DNA of 64,000 nt from Pseudoalteromonas prydzensis (GTDB lineage: Bacteria; Pseudomonadota; Gammaproteobacteria; Enterobacterales; Alteromonadaceae), in NCBI RefSeq assembly GCF_011050055.1, contig NZ_DRGM01000037.1, forward strand, positions 1 through 64,000. The letters are read 5' to 3'. A program made the translations under genes and the position numbers. Each line of letters begins with the position of its first letter. Positions within the stretch are counted from its first letter, which is position 1. Of this stretch, positions 51,172 to 60,300 are shown piece after piece. Below the pieces are notes generated by a model. That model did not search any database. It saw only the letters and a program-made list of their open reading frames with translations, and was not told the DNA's origin.

Positions 51172-51480
51172 ATGAGTGAAAGTTCTCAACATAAATCTGC
51201 AATTGGCTTACTTTACGAAGCAGGCCGCGCACCAACAGTAGCCAGTAAAGGATTTGGCAAGCTGGCAGAAGAAATTATTAAAGTCGCGGAAGAAAAAGGC
51301 ATTTTGATCCACAAAGATGAAGCCTTGGCAAAAACATTATCGCATTTAGAGCTAGGTGAGGAGATCCCCAAAGAGTTGTATTATGTGATTGCCGAGTTGA
51401 TTGCTTTTTCGTATGTACTACGGGGAAAGTTTCCACCAGGCTGGCAAGACTTTCAAGGTAAGTTAAATATTAAGGCTTAA
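51172..51480 (+). CDS. FlhX-like protein (stand-alone FlhB cytoplasmic domain)
   Basis: A 102-residue protein equivalent to the FlhB/YscU C-terminal domain after the autocleavage site, with ASKGFGKLAEEIIKVAEEKGI and the PKELYYVIAELIAF helix. The cleavage motif NPTH is replaced by RAPTVA, so no self-cleavage is needed: the product equals the already cleaved fragment. FlhX proteins have been reported to complement a truncated FlhB. It follows the FliK-like gene by three bases, so the pair is one unit. Confidence 0.88.
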   Translation: MSESSQHKSAIGLLYEAGRAPTVASKGFGKLAEEIIKVAEEKGILIHKDEALAKTLSHLELGEEIPKELYYVIAELIAFSYVLRGKFPPGWQDFQGKLNIKA

Positions 51481-51915: not shown

Positions 51916-52413
51916 TTATAAACCGCTCAGCTCGTCCCACTCTTCATCATTTAGCAATTTGTTTAAATCAACTAAAATCAATAATTCGCCATCGCGATTA
52001 CTTACACCTTGGATAAACTTAGCACTTTCTTCTGTGCCAATGTTTGGTGCGCTGTCGATTTCTGAGCTGCGTAAATAAACCACTTCAGCGACACTGTCAG
52101 CGAGAATACCAATAACTTGCTCTTCTGCTTCGATGATCAAAACCCGTGAATTATCCGTTGCCTCAGCCGACATTAAACCAAATCGTGCGCGGGTATCAAT
52201 AACGGTTACAACGTTACCACGTAGGTTAATGATCCCTAATACATAGCTTGGCGCGCCAGGTACTGGCGCAATTTCTGTGTAACGCAAAATCTCTTGGACT
52301 TGCATTACATTTACGCCATAGGTTTCTGATTCCAGCTTAAAAGTGACCCATTGCAATACTTCATCATTGCCGTCGGTATTTTTACTGGTTGATAATAATC
52401 TTTGTTCACTCAT
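51916..52413 (-). CDS. cheW: CheW, chemotaxis coupling protein
   Basis: A 165-residue SH3-like adaptor that joins chemoreceptors to CheA. It shows QWVTFKLESETYGVNVMQVQEILRY, NLRGNVVTVIDTR and the last strand with LVDLNKLL. It follows the ParP gene and precedes the DUF2802 gene in the same operon. Confidence 0.96.
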   Translation of the reverse strand: MSEQRLLSTSKNTDGNDEVLQWVTFKLESETYGVNVMQVQEILRYTEIAPVPGAPSYVLGIINLRGNVVTVIDTRARFGLMSAEATDNSRVLIIEAEEQVIGILADSVAEVVYLRSSEIDSAPNIGTEESAKFIQGVSNRDGELLILVDLNKLLNDEEWDELSGL

Positions 52414-52432: not shown

Positions 52433-53230
52433 TTACTGCTCGCGGCTATCTAAGCCCTGCTCTAATAATTGATTTAAGCTTTGCACATCAATTAAGGCAC
52501 ACATTTTTTCTTTAATTACACCTGCAAGCCAAGGCCGTTTACCACTTTTAGCTCGCCATTTCACATCCTCACTACGAAGTGTGATGTTATTTACTAGCTT
52601 TTCTGCCAACAATCCCCATTGGCTATCACCTAAGGTGATCAAGTATTGGTAGTTTAATTTGTCTTCTAACTCTTGGGTATACTTTTCTGGCATCACCCAA
52701 CGAGCGGTATCAACCACATTCAGGTTTTCTTCACGATTGAGCATAACCCCTTTAAACCATTTAGGTTTACCAAACAGTTGGTTTACTTCACCTAATTGAT
52801 GAATGCCCCCAAGCGCCTTGAGGGGTACTGCAAGGGTCAGCCCCGCTACTTCAAAAAATAATGCTTGAAATTCGCCATCAAAGTAATCCTCTTGACGTTG
52901 TACTGGCGTTTTCGCTTCAACGACATCAAGTTGTCTATTAACTTTAGCTATATCATTGATATTAGCTTGGATCTGCGGTTTCTCAAGGGATGGTGTAATT
53001 TGTGGCGGTATTTCTTCTTCAGCACTTGGTTTTGGCTCATCCAGTGCACCTGGTTGCACAATCGTTTGCTGCGACGCTTTCGCTGGCATTTTATTGCTAG
53101 TGTCTGTCGATGAAACTTGTTCGAGTAATTTTGCAACCGGTTCTAAGTCCGTCGACTTTTCTTCTTCGCACAGTAAAGCCCCCAAGTACTGGGTCATTAC
53201 TTTTTCATTAGCAAATAATTGCTTACTCAT
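52433..53230 (-). CDS. parP: ParP, polar chemotaxis array protein with CheW-like domain
   Basis: A 265-residue protein. Residues about 1-110 are low-complexity and Pro/Glu-rich; the C-terminal half is CheW-like (LFFEVAGLTLAVPLKALGGIHQL, GKPKWFKGVMLNREENLNVVDTARWV). In Vibrio ParP binds ParC and the CheA LID region, so that the array is kept at the pole. The location between parC and cheW is the same. Its low-complexity half would be the flexible linker. Confidence 0.85.
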   Translation of the reverse strand: MSKQLFANEKVMTQYLGALLCEEEKSTDLEPVAKLLEQVSSTDTSNKMPAKASQQTIVQPGALDEPKPSAEEEIPPQITPSLEKPQIQANINDIAKVNRQLDVVEAKTPVQRQEDYFDGEFQALFFEVAGLTLAVPLKALGGIHQLGEVNQLFGKPKWFKGVMLNREENLNVVDTARWVMPEKYTQELEDKLNYQYLITLGDSQWGLLAEKLVNNITLRSEDVKWRAKSGKRPWLAGVIKEKMCALIDVQSLNQLLEQGLDSREQ

Positions 53231-53233
53231 TCA

Positions 53234-54004
53234 TTAACCTTGTTCAATTAAATAATCGAGTAATGCACGATAAGCATAAACACCTCTTGAGCGTGGACAA
53301 TACTGAACCGGTACTTGCTGGGCTAAACTTGCATCACGAAACTTCGTATCTACAGGTATTACCCCTGGCCAAACCTTTTCTTGGTAGCTCTGCTGTAATG
53401 TTTTATATGCCTCGAGGGATGCATTGGTGCGCTTATCATACATTGTCGGAATAATGGTATATTGATACTGCTTTGATTGCGAGCTTTGCATTAATTCCAT
53501 GGTTCGCATCATGCGGTCCAGCCCTTTTAGCGCTAAAAACTCCGTTTGCACCGGCACTAAAATCCGTTCACTGGCAGCCAACGCATTCACCATTAAAACA
53601 CCCAGCACTGGCGGACAATCTAATATAGCATAATCATAATGTTCACTGATTTTTGTTAGCGCTTTTTTTAAAATCAACCCCATCCCCGTTTTATTACCCA
53701 TACTGCGATCTAAGGTGGCTATCGCCATGGTAGCAGGCAAAATGTCTAAATTATCAATATTTGATGGGCAAAGCGCTTGTAAAATCTCTTCACTGACCAT
53801 CGCGCTACCACGGGCAAATACATCATATACACTGACTTCTAAATCTTCAGAGTCAATGCCAAAGTAATAGGTTAAAGATGCATGGGGATCAGTATCAATC
53901 AGTAATACTCGCTTTCCTTGCAGCGCTAATATGCCAGCTAAACTCACAGCCGTGGTGGTTTTCCCTACTCCGCCTTTTTGATTCGCTACCGTCCAGATTT
54001 TCAC
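53234..54004 (-). CDS. parC: ParC, ParA-like ATPase for polar chemotaxis array placement
   Basis: A 256-residue MinD/ParA-family ATPase with a deviant Walker A KGGVGKTT at about residue 10, switch DTDPHASLTY, and switch II DCPPVLG. In Vibrio ParC recruits the chemotaxis array to the pole. It sits in the che operon between motD and parP, not near the replication origin, hence not a chromosome-partition gene. Confidence 0.87.
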   Translation of the reverse strand: MKIWTVANQKGGVGKTTTAVSLAGILALQGKRVLLIDTDPHASLTYYFGIDSEDLEVSVYDVFARGSAMVSEEILQALCPSNIDNLDILPATMAIATLDRSMGNKTGMGLILKKALTKISEHYDYAILDCPPVLGVLMVNALAASERILVPVQTEFLALKGLDRMMRTMELMQSSQSKQYQYTIIPTMYDKRTNASLEAYKTLQQSYQEKVWPGVIPVDTKFRDASLAQQVPVQYCPRSRGVYAYRALLDYLIEQG

Positions 54005-56927: not shown

Positions 56928-59120
56928 CTAACCTGCGTAGTGTTTTAACAGGTTTGGCACATCTAAGATCAGCGCTATTCCGCCGTCAGAGGTGATCGTT
57001 GCACCTGCCATACCCGGTGTTCCTTGTAGTAAAGCATCAAGCGGTTTAATAACCACTTCTTCTTGACCAATCAATGAATCCACTACAAAACCAACTTGTT
57101 GCGTACCTATTTGTACAATTACAACATGGCCTTGCGCTTTGCGTAATGATCTGTCTGCACCTTTAACTAACCAATGTTCTAAATAAAACAACGGTCGTGC
57201 TTTCTTACGCACAATAATAGTTAATTGACCATCAACAACATTCGTTTTAGTTAGATCTAGGTGGAATATTTCATTAACACCAGCCAGTGGTAATGCAAAT
57301 GTTTGCTCACCGACAACCACCATCAATGTCGGCAAAATAGCCAACGTTAACGGAACTTTAATTTCTAGGATTGTGCCAACACCTAGCTCAGATTGAATAC
57401 TCACAGAGCCATTAAGCTGGGTAATTTTGGTTTTCACCACATCCATACCTACGCCACGGCCTGAAATATCCGAGATCTGCTCTTTGGTTGAAAAGCCAGG
57501 TGCAAAAATGAGGTTATACGCTTCCGTATCAGACAAGCGCGCTGCTTGTTCGTGGTCAAGTACCCCTTTATTAATGGCAATTTTTTTCAGCTTTTCAGGA
57601 TCCATACCCGCCCCATCATCACGAATGGTAAGCAAAATATGGTCACCCTCTTGAGATGCTGACAATGTCACGGTACCTGTGCGCGATTTACCTGCAGCTT
57701 CACGCACATCTGGCATTTCAATACCATGGTCAACTGAATTACGTACTAAGTGGACAAGTGGATCAGCCAGTGCTTCAACTAAGTTTTTATCTAGATCGGT
57801 TTCTTCACCAACCAATAACAGGTTAATGTCTTTTTTCAAGCTACGCGCTAAATCTCGTACCACACGAGGGAAACGACCAAACACTTTCTTGATTGGTTGC
57901 ATCCGCGTTTTCATCACCGCACCTTGTAAATCTGCTGTCACTACATCAAGGTTAGAGATGGCTTTACCCATCGCTTCGCTTTCAGTATTGGTGGCAAGGC
58001 TCACTAAACGATTACGAACTAATACTAACTCACCGACCATATTCATTATTTGATCGAGGCGCTTAGTATCAACGCGCACTGTGGTATCGGCTTGTGGTGG
58101 TGGCGCTTTTTTAGCCGCAGCAGGGGCTGGCGCAGGCGTTGCTGTAGGGGTTGGCTTTTCAACCGCCTTACTTGCTTCACTTGGAGCTGGTTTTTTAATT
58201 TCAGGCTTAGCGGCAACAGCAGCGGATGGCGTTGGCGCAGGTGCTGATTCTGTCGCTTGGGGAGCACTTCCTTTACCATGCAGTTCATCAAGTAAAGCTT
58301 CAAATTCATCATCACTGATTTCATCTGGGTTGGTGCTTTTCGGCGCTTCAATCGGCGCGGGGTTAGGAGCAGCAGCTTGGCTACTTGCAGTATTGTTGCT
58401 CACCATACCAAAGCTGCCAACACCATGTAATTCATCTAATAAGTTGTCAAATTCGTCATCAGTAATATCACTGCTCGATGAATCATTATGCACTGAACCG
58501 GTTGTGGTTATTGGGCTTTGGCCTTTACCATGCAGCTCATCGAGTAAACTTTCAAATTCATCTTCAGTAATTTCATCAATTTGAGTATCATTTTGGTCAC
58601 TATCTACCTGACCATCAAATAATAAGTCAAATGCAAATGGATCGTCATCATCTAAAATAGCATCAGCATCTACGACTGGTGTAGGTGTCTCATCCACTGA
58701 TGCTGCTGCACCACTGATTTCATCAGCAGTTGGCGGCAAACCTAACTTATGTAAAACGGCGAGTAGTTCAGGATTGGCAGGCTCTGGCTTTTCTCTGCTT
58801 TGGATAGTCGCGAACATTTCGTTAATTGTGTCGAGCGCTTGCAGGATAACATCCATCAGCTCAGAATTAACTTTTCGCACGCCTTGGCGTAATAAATCAA
58901 ACACGTTCTCAGCGCCGTGACAAGCATCGACTAACTCAGTCATACTTAAAAAGCCAGCGCCACCTTTGACCGTATGAAAACCACGAAAAATTGCATTGAG
59001 TAATTCGGTATCATCTGGGTTATTTTCAAGCTCCACCAGCTGTTCTGACAAAAGCTCAAGAATTTCTCCAGCCTCTACTAGAAAATCTTGTAAAATATCT
59101 TCATCGACTTCAAAGCTCAT
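56928..59120 (-). CDS. cheA: CheA, chemotaxis histidine kinase, with triple acidic repeat in the linker
   Basis: A 730-residue kinase. HPt domain 1 to about 110 has His49 (FRGFHTVKGGAGF). Dimerisation (about 350-400), HATPase (about 400-550, LVHLVRNSVDHGIE and GRGVGMDVV) and CheW-like (about 580-730) domains follow. Between HPt and dimerisation lies a low-complexity region with three copies of a D-E-I-x-x-D-E-F-x-x-L-L-D-E-L-H-G motif (about 182-200, 218-235, 266-284), then an Ala/Pro linker. I see no E. coli-type P2 CheY-binding domain. In the Vibrio polar system CheA uses a LID region to bind ParP. Confidence 0.96.
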   Translation of the reverse strand: MSFEVDEDILQDFLVEAGEILELLSEQLVELENNPDDTELLNAIFRGFHTVKGGAGFLSMTELVDACHGAENVFDLLRQGVRKVNSELMDVILQALDTINEMFATIQSREKPEPANPELLAVLHKLGLPPTADEISGAAASVDETPTPVVDADAILDDDDPFAFDLLFDGQVDSDQNDTQIDEITEDEFESLLDELHGKGQSPITTTGSVHNDSSSSDITDDEFDNLLDELHGVGSFGMVSNNTASSQAAAPNPAPIEAPKSTNPDEISDDEFEALLDELHGKGSAPQATESAPAPTPSAAVAAKPEIKKPAPSEASKAVEKPTPTATPAPAPAAAKKAPPPQADTTVRVDTKRLDQIMNMVGELVLVRNRLVSLATNTESEAMGKAISNLDVVTADLQGAVMKTRMQPIKKVFGRFPRVVRDLARSLKKDINLLLVGEETDLDKNLVEALADPLVHLVRNSVDHGIEMPDVREAAGKSRTGTVTLSASQEGDHILLTIRDDGAGMDPEKLKKIAINKGVLDHEQAARLSDTEAYNLIFAPGFSTKEQISDISGRGVGMDVVKTKITQLNGSVSIQSELGVGTILEIKVPLTLAILPTLMVVVGEQTFALPLAGVNEIFHLDLTKTNVVDGQLTIIVRKKARPLFYLEHWLVKGADRSLRKAQGHVVIVQIGTQQVGFVVDSLIGQEEVVIKPLDALLQGTPGMAGATITSDGGIALILDVPNLLKHYAG
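58269..58577 (-). repeat. Three tandem-like acidic motifs within cheA
   Basis: Encodes residues 182-284 of CheA with three copies of the motif DEI[ST][ED]DEF[ED]xLLDELHG[KV]G. Key residues: the Phe residues are 35 and 49 residues apart (189, 224, 273), and the LLDELHG core is invariant. The intervening sequences are Ser/Asn/Gln-rich and unrelated to one another. Confidence 0.88.
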
Positions 59121-59134
59121 GCAGTTTTCTCCTC

Positions 59135-59899
59135 TTAGAAGCCCAAGCTTGATAATAAATCATCTACATCATCTTGCCCTGAGACAACATCATCACGAGA
59201 TTCTTTATCAATAATTGGCCCTTCAGGGCCTGCAAGTGTATTTTCAGCAGGCGGTTTTTCAATGGCTGGTGCTATTGTTTTTGTTTCGCTATCATCTTGG
59301 CTGCCAAATGCGGTTAACAAGTGGATCAAGCTGTCTTCTACTTCTCTAACTAATTCGATCACCCGACGGATAACTTGACCAGTCAAATCTTGGAAATCTT
59401 GCGCCATTAACACATTGGTCATCAGCCCTTGCAATTCATCCGTTTTAGCTTGTGAGTTATTCATGAAGTTATCTAAGCTATGACAGAGTGTTTTAAACTC
59501 TCCCAGCTCAATTTCACGATTCATGAGACGGTCCCACGTAGGTTTGATATGTGAAATTTCATCTGCAAGTTGTTGAGCAATTGGTAAGCTTGCTTCTACC
59601 GCATCCATGGTCTTGTTGGCAGCGTTTTCTGTCATTTCCATAACATAATTAAGGCGCTGCTTAGCATCAGGGATAGCTTCAGTCGTCAAGTCAGCTAAAC
59701 GTGTATCAAGCTCAAAATTTTTCAACGCGTCATGAAGCTGACGCGTCAGTTTGCCTACTTCGGCGAATAATTCTGATTGCTCTTTTGACGCCGCATCAAT
59801 AATTAATTGATCAGCTTTTTCTTGTTCACCGTTTTCAAGGTAAACCACAAGCTGACGGGCTTGTTCTAAACTGATCTGAGGCGCAGCTGGTGCTGACAT
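59135..59899 (-). CDS. cheZ: CheZ, CheY-P phosphatase
   Basis: A 254-residue helical protein that dephosphorylates CheY-P. The catalytic Gln lies in MAQDFQDLTGQVIRRV, and the C-terminal tail ending VDDLLSSLGF is the CheY-binding peptide. The region from about 205-240 is a Ser/Asp-rich linker. It is placed between cheY and cheA. Confidence 0.95.
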   Translation of the reverse strand: MSAPAAPQISLEQARQLVVYLENGEQEKADQLIIDAASKEQSELFAEVGKLTRQLHDALKNFELDTRLADLTTEAIPDAKQRLNYVMEMTENAANKTMDAVEASLPIAQQLADEISHIKPTWDRLMNREIELGEFKTLCHSLDNFMNNSQAKTDELQGLMTNVLMAQDFQDLTGQVIRRVIELVREVEDSLIHLLTAFGSQDDSETKTIAPAIEKPPAENTLAGPEGPIIDKESRDDVVSGQDDVDDLLSSLGF

Positions 59900-59916: not shown

Positions 59917-60300
59917 TTAACCTAAACGCTCAAACACTTTTTCCAATTTGGTCTTAAGTGTTGCAGCTGTAAATGGTTTAACGATATAGCCGTTAACACC
60001 AGCTTGGGCAGCAGCAACTATTTGTTCTTTTTTAGCTTCTGCTGTTACCATCAAAACTGGAAGATGTTTCAGGCTGTCATCGGCCCTAATAGCGCGCAAC
60101 AAATCAATCCCTTGCATGCCCGGCATGTTCCAATCTGTTACCACAAAATCAAATTCTTGATTCTGTAACATCGGTAAAGCTGTTGAGCCATCATCAGCTT
60201 CTTGTACATTTGTAAAACCCAAATCTCTTAACAGATTTTTGATAATACGTCTCATCGTCGAAAAATCATCAACAACAAGAATTTTCATGTTTTTATCCAA
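59917..60300 (-). CDS. cheY: CheY, chemotaxis response regulator
   Basis: A 127-residue single receiver that sets flagellar rotation direction. It has [11 protein letters not shown] (acidic pocket), phospho-acceptor in VTDWNMPG (about Asp60), TAEAKKEQ and [12 protein letters not shown]. Start: TTG with GGAGG five bases upstream (residues MDKNMKI); the ATG four codons in has a poor site, so TTG is favoured. Not otherwise unusual. Confidence 0.97.

Follow-up and report, generated by a model that had tools for sequence, protein, structure and literature searches.

How does a chemotaxis histidine kinase without a recognizable P2 domain hold its response regulator, CheY? The question is raised by a 64,000-nucleotide stretch of Pseudoalteromonas prydzensis DNA (contig NZ_DRGM01000037.1, positions 1 to 64,000; hereafter the window), whose cheA gene (56928–59120, minus strand) encodes a 730-residue CheA in which translation, Pfam and a P2 profile of our own reveal no P2, and which carries three short acidic repeats in the corresponding interval. 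More than half of CheA proteins are reported to be without P2, and the accessible text of that survey (PMC10782961) does not explain how they hold CheY. Sequence comparison leads us to propose that the repeats are probably CheY-docking short linear motifs, similar to those of FliM and CheZ, that would do the job of P2.

Three conserved repeats in a CheA linker

Pfam assigns Hpt to residues 8-99 of the window CheA, H-kinase_dim to 346-405, HATPase to 453-592 and CheW to 599-727, which satisfies the order of a histidine kinase. Between Hpt (P1) and the dimerization domain (P3) lies a low-complexity linker (residues about 131-346; 58083–58730, minus strand) whose conserved blocks are the repeats and the start of P3. 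Repeat 1, DEITEDEFESLLDELHGK, occupies residues 182-199 (58524–58577), repeat 2, SDITDDEFDNLLDELHGV, residues 217-234 (58419–58472), and repeat 3, DEISDDEFEALLDELHGK, residues 266-283 (58272–58325), all on the minus strand. A motif profile that includes the first two matches them in their own genome at 46.2 bits (E 3.6e-11) and 42.7 bits (E 4.4e-10) respectively, and the third is the best site in the linker for a FliM-derived profile described below (score 14.0). All three share the same EF-x-x-LLDELHG core, and translation confirms the acidic repeats that an earlier note on this DNA had described, together with the range it gave for them (58269–58577). The spacers between the repeats are GQSPITTTGSVHNDSSS and GSFGMVSNNTASSQAAAPNPAPIEAPKSTNP, and not a single copy of EFxxLLDELHG arose when residues 131-345 were shuffled 20,000 times. 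Between copies there are 3-4 synonymous and 3-6 residue-changing differences among 18 codons; because the copies differ synonymously they do not derive from a fresh DNA duplication, and a recent duplication of one repeat is ruled out also by the presence of three copies in the same order as far as Vibrio. N-terminal to repeat 1 there is a separate acidic-aromatic block, DPFAFDLLFDG (residues 160-170; 58611–58643), which is nearly complete in two other rows of a 36-row alignment (L163 and L166, both Pseudoalteromonas) and partial in a few more.

The repeats are real and widely conserved, and are not peculiar to the window genome. A motif of the form DEIT[DE][DE]EFEALLDxLHGxG is present in 109 of 276 genomes sampled from the class (motif profile, E≤0.01), mostly in 1-4 copies per CheA; most of the profile matches listed are in CheA-length frames, and the few in shorter frames were partly checked. 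Within a phylum sample of 397 genomes, whose share outside the class is not stated, 73 have the motif at E≤0.001, and all 73 belong to the window's own or the same family, order or class. The best 120 CheA places listed from the class sample (L012-L131) comprise 104 closer loci (L012-L115) and 16 distant ones (L116-L131). A strict pattern finds the motif in 93 of the 104, with 1-4 copies each; five of the other 11 are truncated or broken (L024, L029, L065, L073 and L098, with a separate open reading frame (ORF) carrying motif copies in both L098 and L073) and six have copies that the pattern misses (L072, L102, L105, L109, L110 and L114). None of the 16 distant CheAs has the motif by pattern. 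The consensus of 192 copies, chosen for their F, is D-E-I-T-D-D-E-F-E-A-L-L-D-Q-L-H-G-K-G, in which E, L, L and D hardly vary.

Conservation is also evident among CheAs of named species, of which 79 of 80 loci (L163-L242) were counted, L236 yielding no CheA by pattern. Under the strict pattern 58 of these have three copies, 15 have two, four have one and two have four, and with a relaxed pattern 77 have three copies and two have four. There are three in Vibrio fortis and Aliivibrio fischeri, and likewise in Aeromonas and Shewanella; the nearest named relatives (88-89% identity in the best segment) are those of P. ostreae, P. rhizosphaerae and P. haloplanktis. From residue 131 to the start of P3 the repeats are the sole conserved blocks in the 79 proteins, a few isolated prolines aside; the conservation table mis-cut the linkers of L195, L213 and L229, the last two of which are correct in the 36-row alignment. 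We note that copy number is near constant in these named CheAs, yet ranges between 1 and 4 in the class as a whole. In the CheA alignment the tail after repeat 2 is GxGxF in many Alteromonadales rows and GxGxxP in Vibrionaceae rows, and that after repeat 3 is invariably GxGxxP; on this pattern, the repeats may not be fully equivalent.

Pfam identifies no P2 or CheY-binding domain in the window CheA or in eight related full-length CheAs, and no P2 is among the matches listed for the linkers (25 of 26 families). Pfam is insensitive for P2, naming a CheY-binding domain in one of five distant CheAs; the CheY-binding family seen in this analysis is PF09078, and PF07194 is one that we take to represent CheA P2 or CheY-binding domains. 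A P2-region profile was therefore of our own making, built from 11 distant CheAs, some closely related to each other, whose P2 content is our reading of the sequences plus one Pfam match (L131). It recovers all 11 training CheAs when each is left out, at 20.7-200.6 bits, and its maximum on 179 other CheA linkers, including that of the window, is 16.8 bits (12 linkers at E≤0.01, 45 at E≤1). By this profile, none of the 179 linkers hides a P2 comparable to those of the true P2 linkers. Pfam matches in the linkers to GemA, SHOCT and EF-hand families were judged spurious; those in the window fall below the curated cut-off, and a SHOCT match in L102 (32.7 bits) is above it. The view in the earlier note that the repeats replace the P2 domain is thus a fair positional description, with no P2 found by Pfam or the P2-region profile. 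The repeats resemble P2 in lying between P1 and P3, and in function by hypothesis only; P2 is a folded domain, whereas the repeat motif is a short linear peptide. The P2-less CheAs of the 2023 survey similarly have P1, P3, P4, P5 and an extended unstructured region in the place of P2, but the accessible text of that survey (PMC10782961) does not suggest that the linker contains docking peptides, and the word 'motif' is absent from the main text available.

Resemblance to the CheY-binding peptides of FliM and CheZ

The C-terminal peptide of CheZ binds CheY. The N-terminal peptide of FliM, with its EIDALL motif, occupies the groove between CheY helices alpha4 and alpha5, as given in the accessible part of the source (PMC9126983). 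Compared with these peptides (FliM LLSQDEIDALL, CheZ SQDEVDDLLSSL), the repeats have in common with them the pattern [IL]-[ST]-x-[DE]-E-[FIV]-[DE]-x-L-L, which is present in 192 CheA copies. FliM N-termini are mostly LLSQDEIDALLHG (30 FliM loci in 29 genomes), related CheZs end like SQDEVDDLLSSLGF, and the window CheZ ends in GQDDVDDLLSSLGF. Register and anchors are the same in FliM LLSQDEIDALL and CheA EISDDEFEALL, both are acidic and end in LL, and HG follows in most of the 30 FliM loci; unlike the FliM peptide, the CheA motif is internal, occurs in 1-4 copies, replaces I/V by F and has three extra residues before HG. The CheZ peptides of relatives have the same core, and a leucine three residues past LL as in CheA LLDxL, but are present as a single copy at the extreme C-terminus.

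Circularity was avoided by scoring with a FliM-derived profile in place of a CheA-derived one. The profile spans 12 residues, is BLOSUM-smoothed and is built solely from 13 distinct FliM N-terminal peptides, and it was scanned over 6,649 ORFs of the 120 cheA loci, the window being left out. The top 90 matches are mainly CheZ C-termini and CheA repeats, together with one FliM, two CheW C-termini and two other ORFs. The best site coincides with a repeat recognized by the pattern in 90 of 93 motif CheAs, and inspection of the remaining three shows it to be a copy that the pattern misses; in 92 of 93 CheZs it is within the last 16 residues. Median scores are 13.5 for motif CheAs and 15.6 for CheZ, against 8.7 for distant CheAs and 7.7 for other long ORFs. 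Between 94 motif CheAs and the 149 other ORFs of at least 500 aa, the profile discriminates with an area under the curve (AUC) of 0.971, a value reached by none of 100 column-permuted profiles (mean 0.655, maximum 0.967). The AUC is 0.678 for the 16 distant CheAs, and 0.755 when the profile is reversed. The values for the permuted (up to 0.967) and reversed profiles show that part of the score is due to composition.

Shuffling of the linkers points to a contribution beyond composition. The best score in the window linker (14.0) was matched by none of 1,000 shuffles, and in 95 of the 100 related linkers evaluated (L024, L029, L065 and L098 being left out) the best score was matched by at most 37 of 1,000. 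For 15 distant loci (L117-L131) it was matched by 101-979 of 1,000 shuffles, and for L116 by nine. The CheA repeats therefore display both the core pattern of FliM and CheZ and a match to them that exceeds composition. With hhalign, the motif and the FliM N-terminus align in register across 15 columns (probability 73%, E 3e-5). Some CheZ C-termini are also among the best non-CheA matches of a strict CheA-derived profile.

Several observations weigh against a CheY-docking role. Five of the 100 related linkers (L023, L072, L073, L105 and L114) score within their shuffles (81-539 of 1,000); truncation or breakage affects L023 and L073, and L072, L105 and L114 carry variants. The hhalign match to the CheZ C-terminus is weak (probability 19%), and hidden Markov models (HMMs) searched over the window's whole genome at E≤10 do not detect across families, matches being limited to the two FliM genes for the FliM N-terminal HMM and to the three CheA repeats for the CheA-motif HMM; this counts against homology, though such detection is not what defines a linear motif. 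With the FliM profile, 104 of 6,443 other ORFs and six of the 16 distant CheAs likewise attain a score of 10. The strict CheA-derived profile gives the window CheZ -11.8 and FliM -7.3, low scores that result from the F fixed in the profile, and F indeed stands in the CheA motif where FliM and CheZ have an I/V anchor. The similarity, as far as the sequences align, is short, and the D-x-LHG-x-G tail of the CheA motif is absent from FliM and CheZ, such that another or an additional partner is possible. Finally, the motif co-occurs strongly with parC, which is present in 99 of the 109 motif genomes.

Two observations on FliM itself are recorded here. The one-contig genome G031 (L043), rated 100% complete, has a motif CheA and CheZ, ParC and ParP matches, and no FliM by PF02154. 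The assembly G000, with a contamination estimate of 8.62%, has two similar but distinct copies of fliM on contigs C37 (L010) and C220 (L009), which may reflect either a mixed assembly or two flagellar clusters.

The parC and parP association and other partners

The explanation that survives best alongside CheY docking, although we regard it as unlikely, is that the repeats make up all or part of the CheA-LID described in the literature; their main partner would then be the CheW-like AIF domain of ParP, by which arrays are tethered to the pole, and the several copies would provide avidity. The accessible text of one source places the Vibrio LID between P2 and P3 (PMC7534058), which is the interval that holds the repeats (residues 182-283, between Hpt at 8-99 and H-kinase_dim at 346-405), the repeats are the conserved blocks of this interval in the 79 named CheAs, and most carriers have parC. 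The FliM/CheZ match, moreover, leaves the conserved LHGxG tail without explanation. The LID is, however, reported only in CheAs that occur with ParC and ParP (PMC7534058 and PMC5706961, in the parts available), and the repeat motif is also found without them. Five motif strings had no occurrence in open-access full text, in which figures are invisible, and an earlier description in the primary LID papers or in subscription papers is possible; a search there for CheA together with EIDALL returned only one archaellum paper.

The 276 genomes fall into two groups by their best ParC match, E≤2.6e-56 in those scored as positive and E≥3.2e-48 in the remainder. The motif and ParC are both present in 99 genomes and both absent from 163, with ten having the motif alone and four (G171, G190, G206 and G275) ParC alone; in the last group the CheA match of G190 begins only at query residue 58 and the CheA of G275 is an open truncated frame. 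A ParP profile was searched in 17 genomes. In six of seven ParC-positive genomes the ParP adjoining ParC scores 74-275 bits, and in the seventh, G010, the divergent neighbour of ParC scores only 24, so the profile is not fully sensitive, a caveat that applies to any absence counted against ParP docking. In nine motif genomes without ParC, representing six families (G001, G008, G020, G024, G137, G152, G154, G172 and G261), the best ParP match is at most 36 bits, which is CheW-like, and G261 has none at all; those of G001, G008, G020, G137, G152 and G154 fall by coordinates on cheW. Six of the nine (G001, G020, G024, G137, G152 and G154) retain near-canonical motif copies. The tenth motif genome without ParC, G161, has a ParP-like ORF in its cheA locus (L083) and no ParC-level match.

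BLAST with the window ParC and ParP likewise finds no such gene downstream of cheA in the eight of nine genomes with visible downstream genes. The order is cheA-cheB-motB-cheW in L091 and L098, cheA-cheB-cheW in L072 and cheA-cheW in L102, L105 and L085; L109 and L110 have no match downstream of cheA, and in L094 (G024) the contig stops 436 bases past cheA. ParC is present in G240, of the same genus as G001, and in G235, of the same family as G137, and as G001 and G137 are only 91% and 95% complete, the genes could lie in a gap elsewhere in either assembly. Loci L102 (G172) and L105 (G261), from one family without ParC, have three variant repeats ITDDEFEALLNQRD and two, ITDEEFELLLQMRE and ITDEEFEQLLQMRE, respectively; they retain the core ITDDEFEALL / ITDEEFELLL and lose the LHG tail, and the tail is therefore separable from the core. 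Among the 79 named CheAs, 78 loci have ParC at ≥40% identity and 77 a distinct ParP match.

The association of the motif with parC is thus strong and not obligatory, and since parC, parP and cheA are in one operon some co-occurrence is expected anyway. Docking to ParP as the sole role is unlikely, being weakened by the motif genomes without parC and parP, and a core common to FliM and CheZ also argues against it. We know of no report that FliM or CheZ binds ParP. Judging from the FliM/CheZ match, the repeats most likely dock CheY and would not serve ParP alone; where ParP is present, it may bind these segments or neighbouring ones. Of the two partners suggested in the earlier note, CheY has thereby gained support from sequence and ParP has it only in part (parC in 99 of 109 motif genomes, and not obligatory); its expectation that the motif is confined to CheAs with parP is contradicted by the nine genomes with neither a ParC nor a ParP match.

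A second alternative, which we consider quite improbable, is that the repeats dock some other partner, such as the receiver domain of CheB or of CheV, a response regulator from outside chemotaxis, or the P1, P4 or P5 domain of CheA itself, the last as a form of kinase regulation. P2 docks both CheY and CheB according to the accessible text of PMC11978298, so a substitute for P2 could serve both, and a copy number of 1 to 4 across the class is consistent with several partners; the specific match, however, by both the FliM profile and hhalign, is to CheY-binding peptides, and the data, which include no test aimed at it, give no hint of a partner surface on CheA. The same source (PMC11978298, as available) reports that P. 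putida CheA pulls down CheY and CheZ, and draws a Pfam-predicted P2 in that protein. A third possibility, that acidic, leucine-containing helices merely lengthen the linker and resemble FliM by chance, draws on the acidic, low-complexity linkers, the AUCs of permuted (up to 0.967) and reversed (0.755) profiles and the failure of the HMMs to cross-detect, but is highly improbable given that E, LL and D are near-invariant over the 192 copies (chosen for F) while the spacers diverge, that most shuffles and all permuted profiles fall short, and that core residues are retained across families.

The putative CheY partner, the operon and a proposed mechanism

The putative partner of the repeats is encoded close by, in a 127-residue cheY (59917–60300, minus strand) whose product has as its nearest solved structure 3to5 ('CheY homolog'). 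We compared 88 CheY sequences, including that of the window, all encoded beside motif CheAs and at least 60% identical to the window CheY, with positions given in E. coli numbering as set by the phosphorylated aspartate; the positions other than 92, 94, 103 and 117 are ones that we presume to be informative. I95, Y106 and K119 are present in all 88, Q94 in 85, V103 in 86, K117 in 76 and R92 in 74, with K92 in the window CheY. Positions 92, 94 and 103 face P2 and 117 is in the FliM-interacting helix, and all four differ between the CheY of this system and a CheY recruited to another CheA, as described in the accessible part of PMC7184735. The residue pattern is consistent with CheY having switched docking partner while using one and the same face, and is indirect evidence because FliM binding alone would keep that face.

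On the minus strand the gene order of the window is cheY, cheZ, cheA, cheB, a motA/motB-like pair (assigned by inspection), a parC-like gene, a parP-like gene and cheW. The C-terminus of the cheZ product (59135–59899), VSGQDDVDDLLSSLGF, matches the pattern seen at the CheZ C-termini of related loci, the window CheZ itself being outside that scan. The parC-like gene (53234–54004) encodes a ParA-family ATPase by Pfam and ParC searches, and the parP-like gene (52433–53230), whose product is the partner that the earlier note had proposed, encodes a CheW-type domain at residues 122-252; both names rest on resemblance and position. From its gene order and CheY residues, the CheA lineage of the window probably belongs to what we take to be chemosensory class F6.

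The cheW gene (51916–52413; Pfam) ends in a segment (51919–51960) encoding KLLNDEEWDELSGL, another sequence similar to the FliM-type profile. Of 74 CheWs, 30 have their best FliM-profile site at the C-terminus, the highest being that of L012 (score 15.1), and on the basis of this resemblance the CheW C-terminus is possibly another docking peptide. Adjoining the chemotaxis operon on the opposite strand (51172–51480, plus) is a gene for a 102-residue protein that matches only the C-terminal part of the FlhB family.

We suggest that each repeat is presumably an acidic, leucine-rich amphipathic helix that would serve as a CheY-docking peptide on a flexible tether, and that the linker, with its 1-4 motifs, would stand in for P2, since this CheA lineage is without a recognizable P2 domain. 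The repeats could raise the local concentration of CheY beside the P1 phospho-histidine, speeding phosphotransfer, after which CheY~P would be released to the similar site on FliM. The LHGxG tail might cap the helix or make a further contact, perhaps with ParP. A broader proposition, on which we are evenly divided, is that, in a large gammaproteobacterial CheA lineage that includes Pseudoalteromonas, Vibrio, Shewanella, Aeromonas and others, the kinase has tandem repeats imitating the peptide by which the motor binds CheY. The same motif would then be on the kinase (in 1-4 copies), on FliM and on CheZ. CheY would pass from one such site to another, and copy number in CheA would adjust the amount of CheY held at the array and the rate of its phosphorylation, with the P2 of enteric bacteria as an alternative solution.

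If CheY docking is correct, a short, mutable motif common to the kinase, the motor and the phosphatase would answer, for one large lineage, the question of how CheY is held. The linker and the LID of Vibrio CheA would then be read differently, and the number of copies in CheA would become a testable gain parameter.

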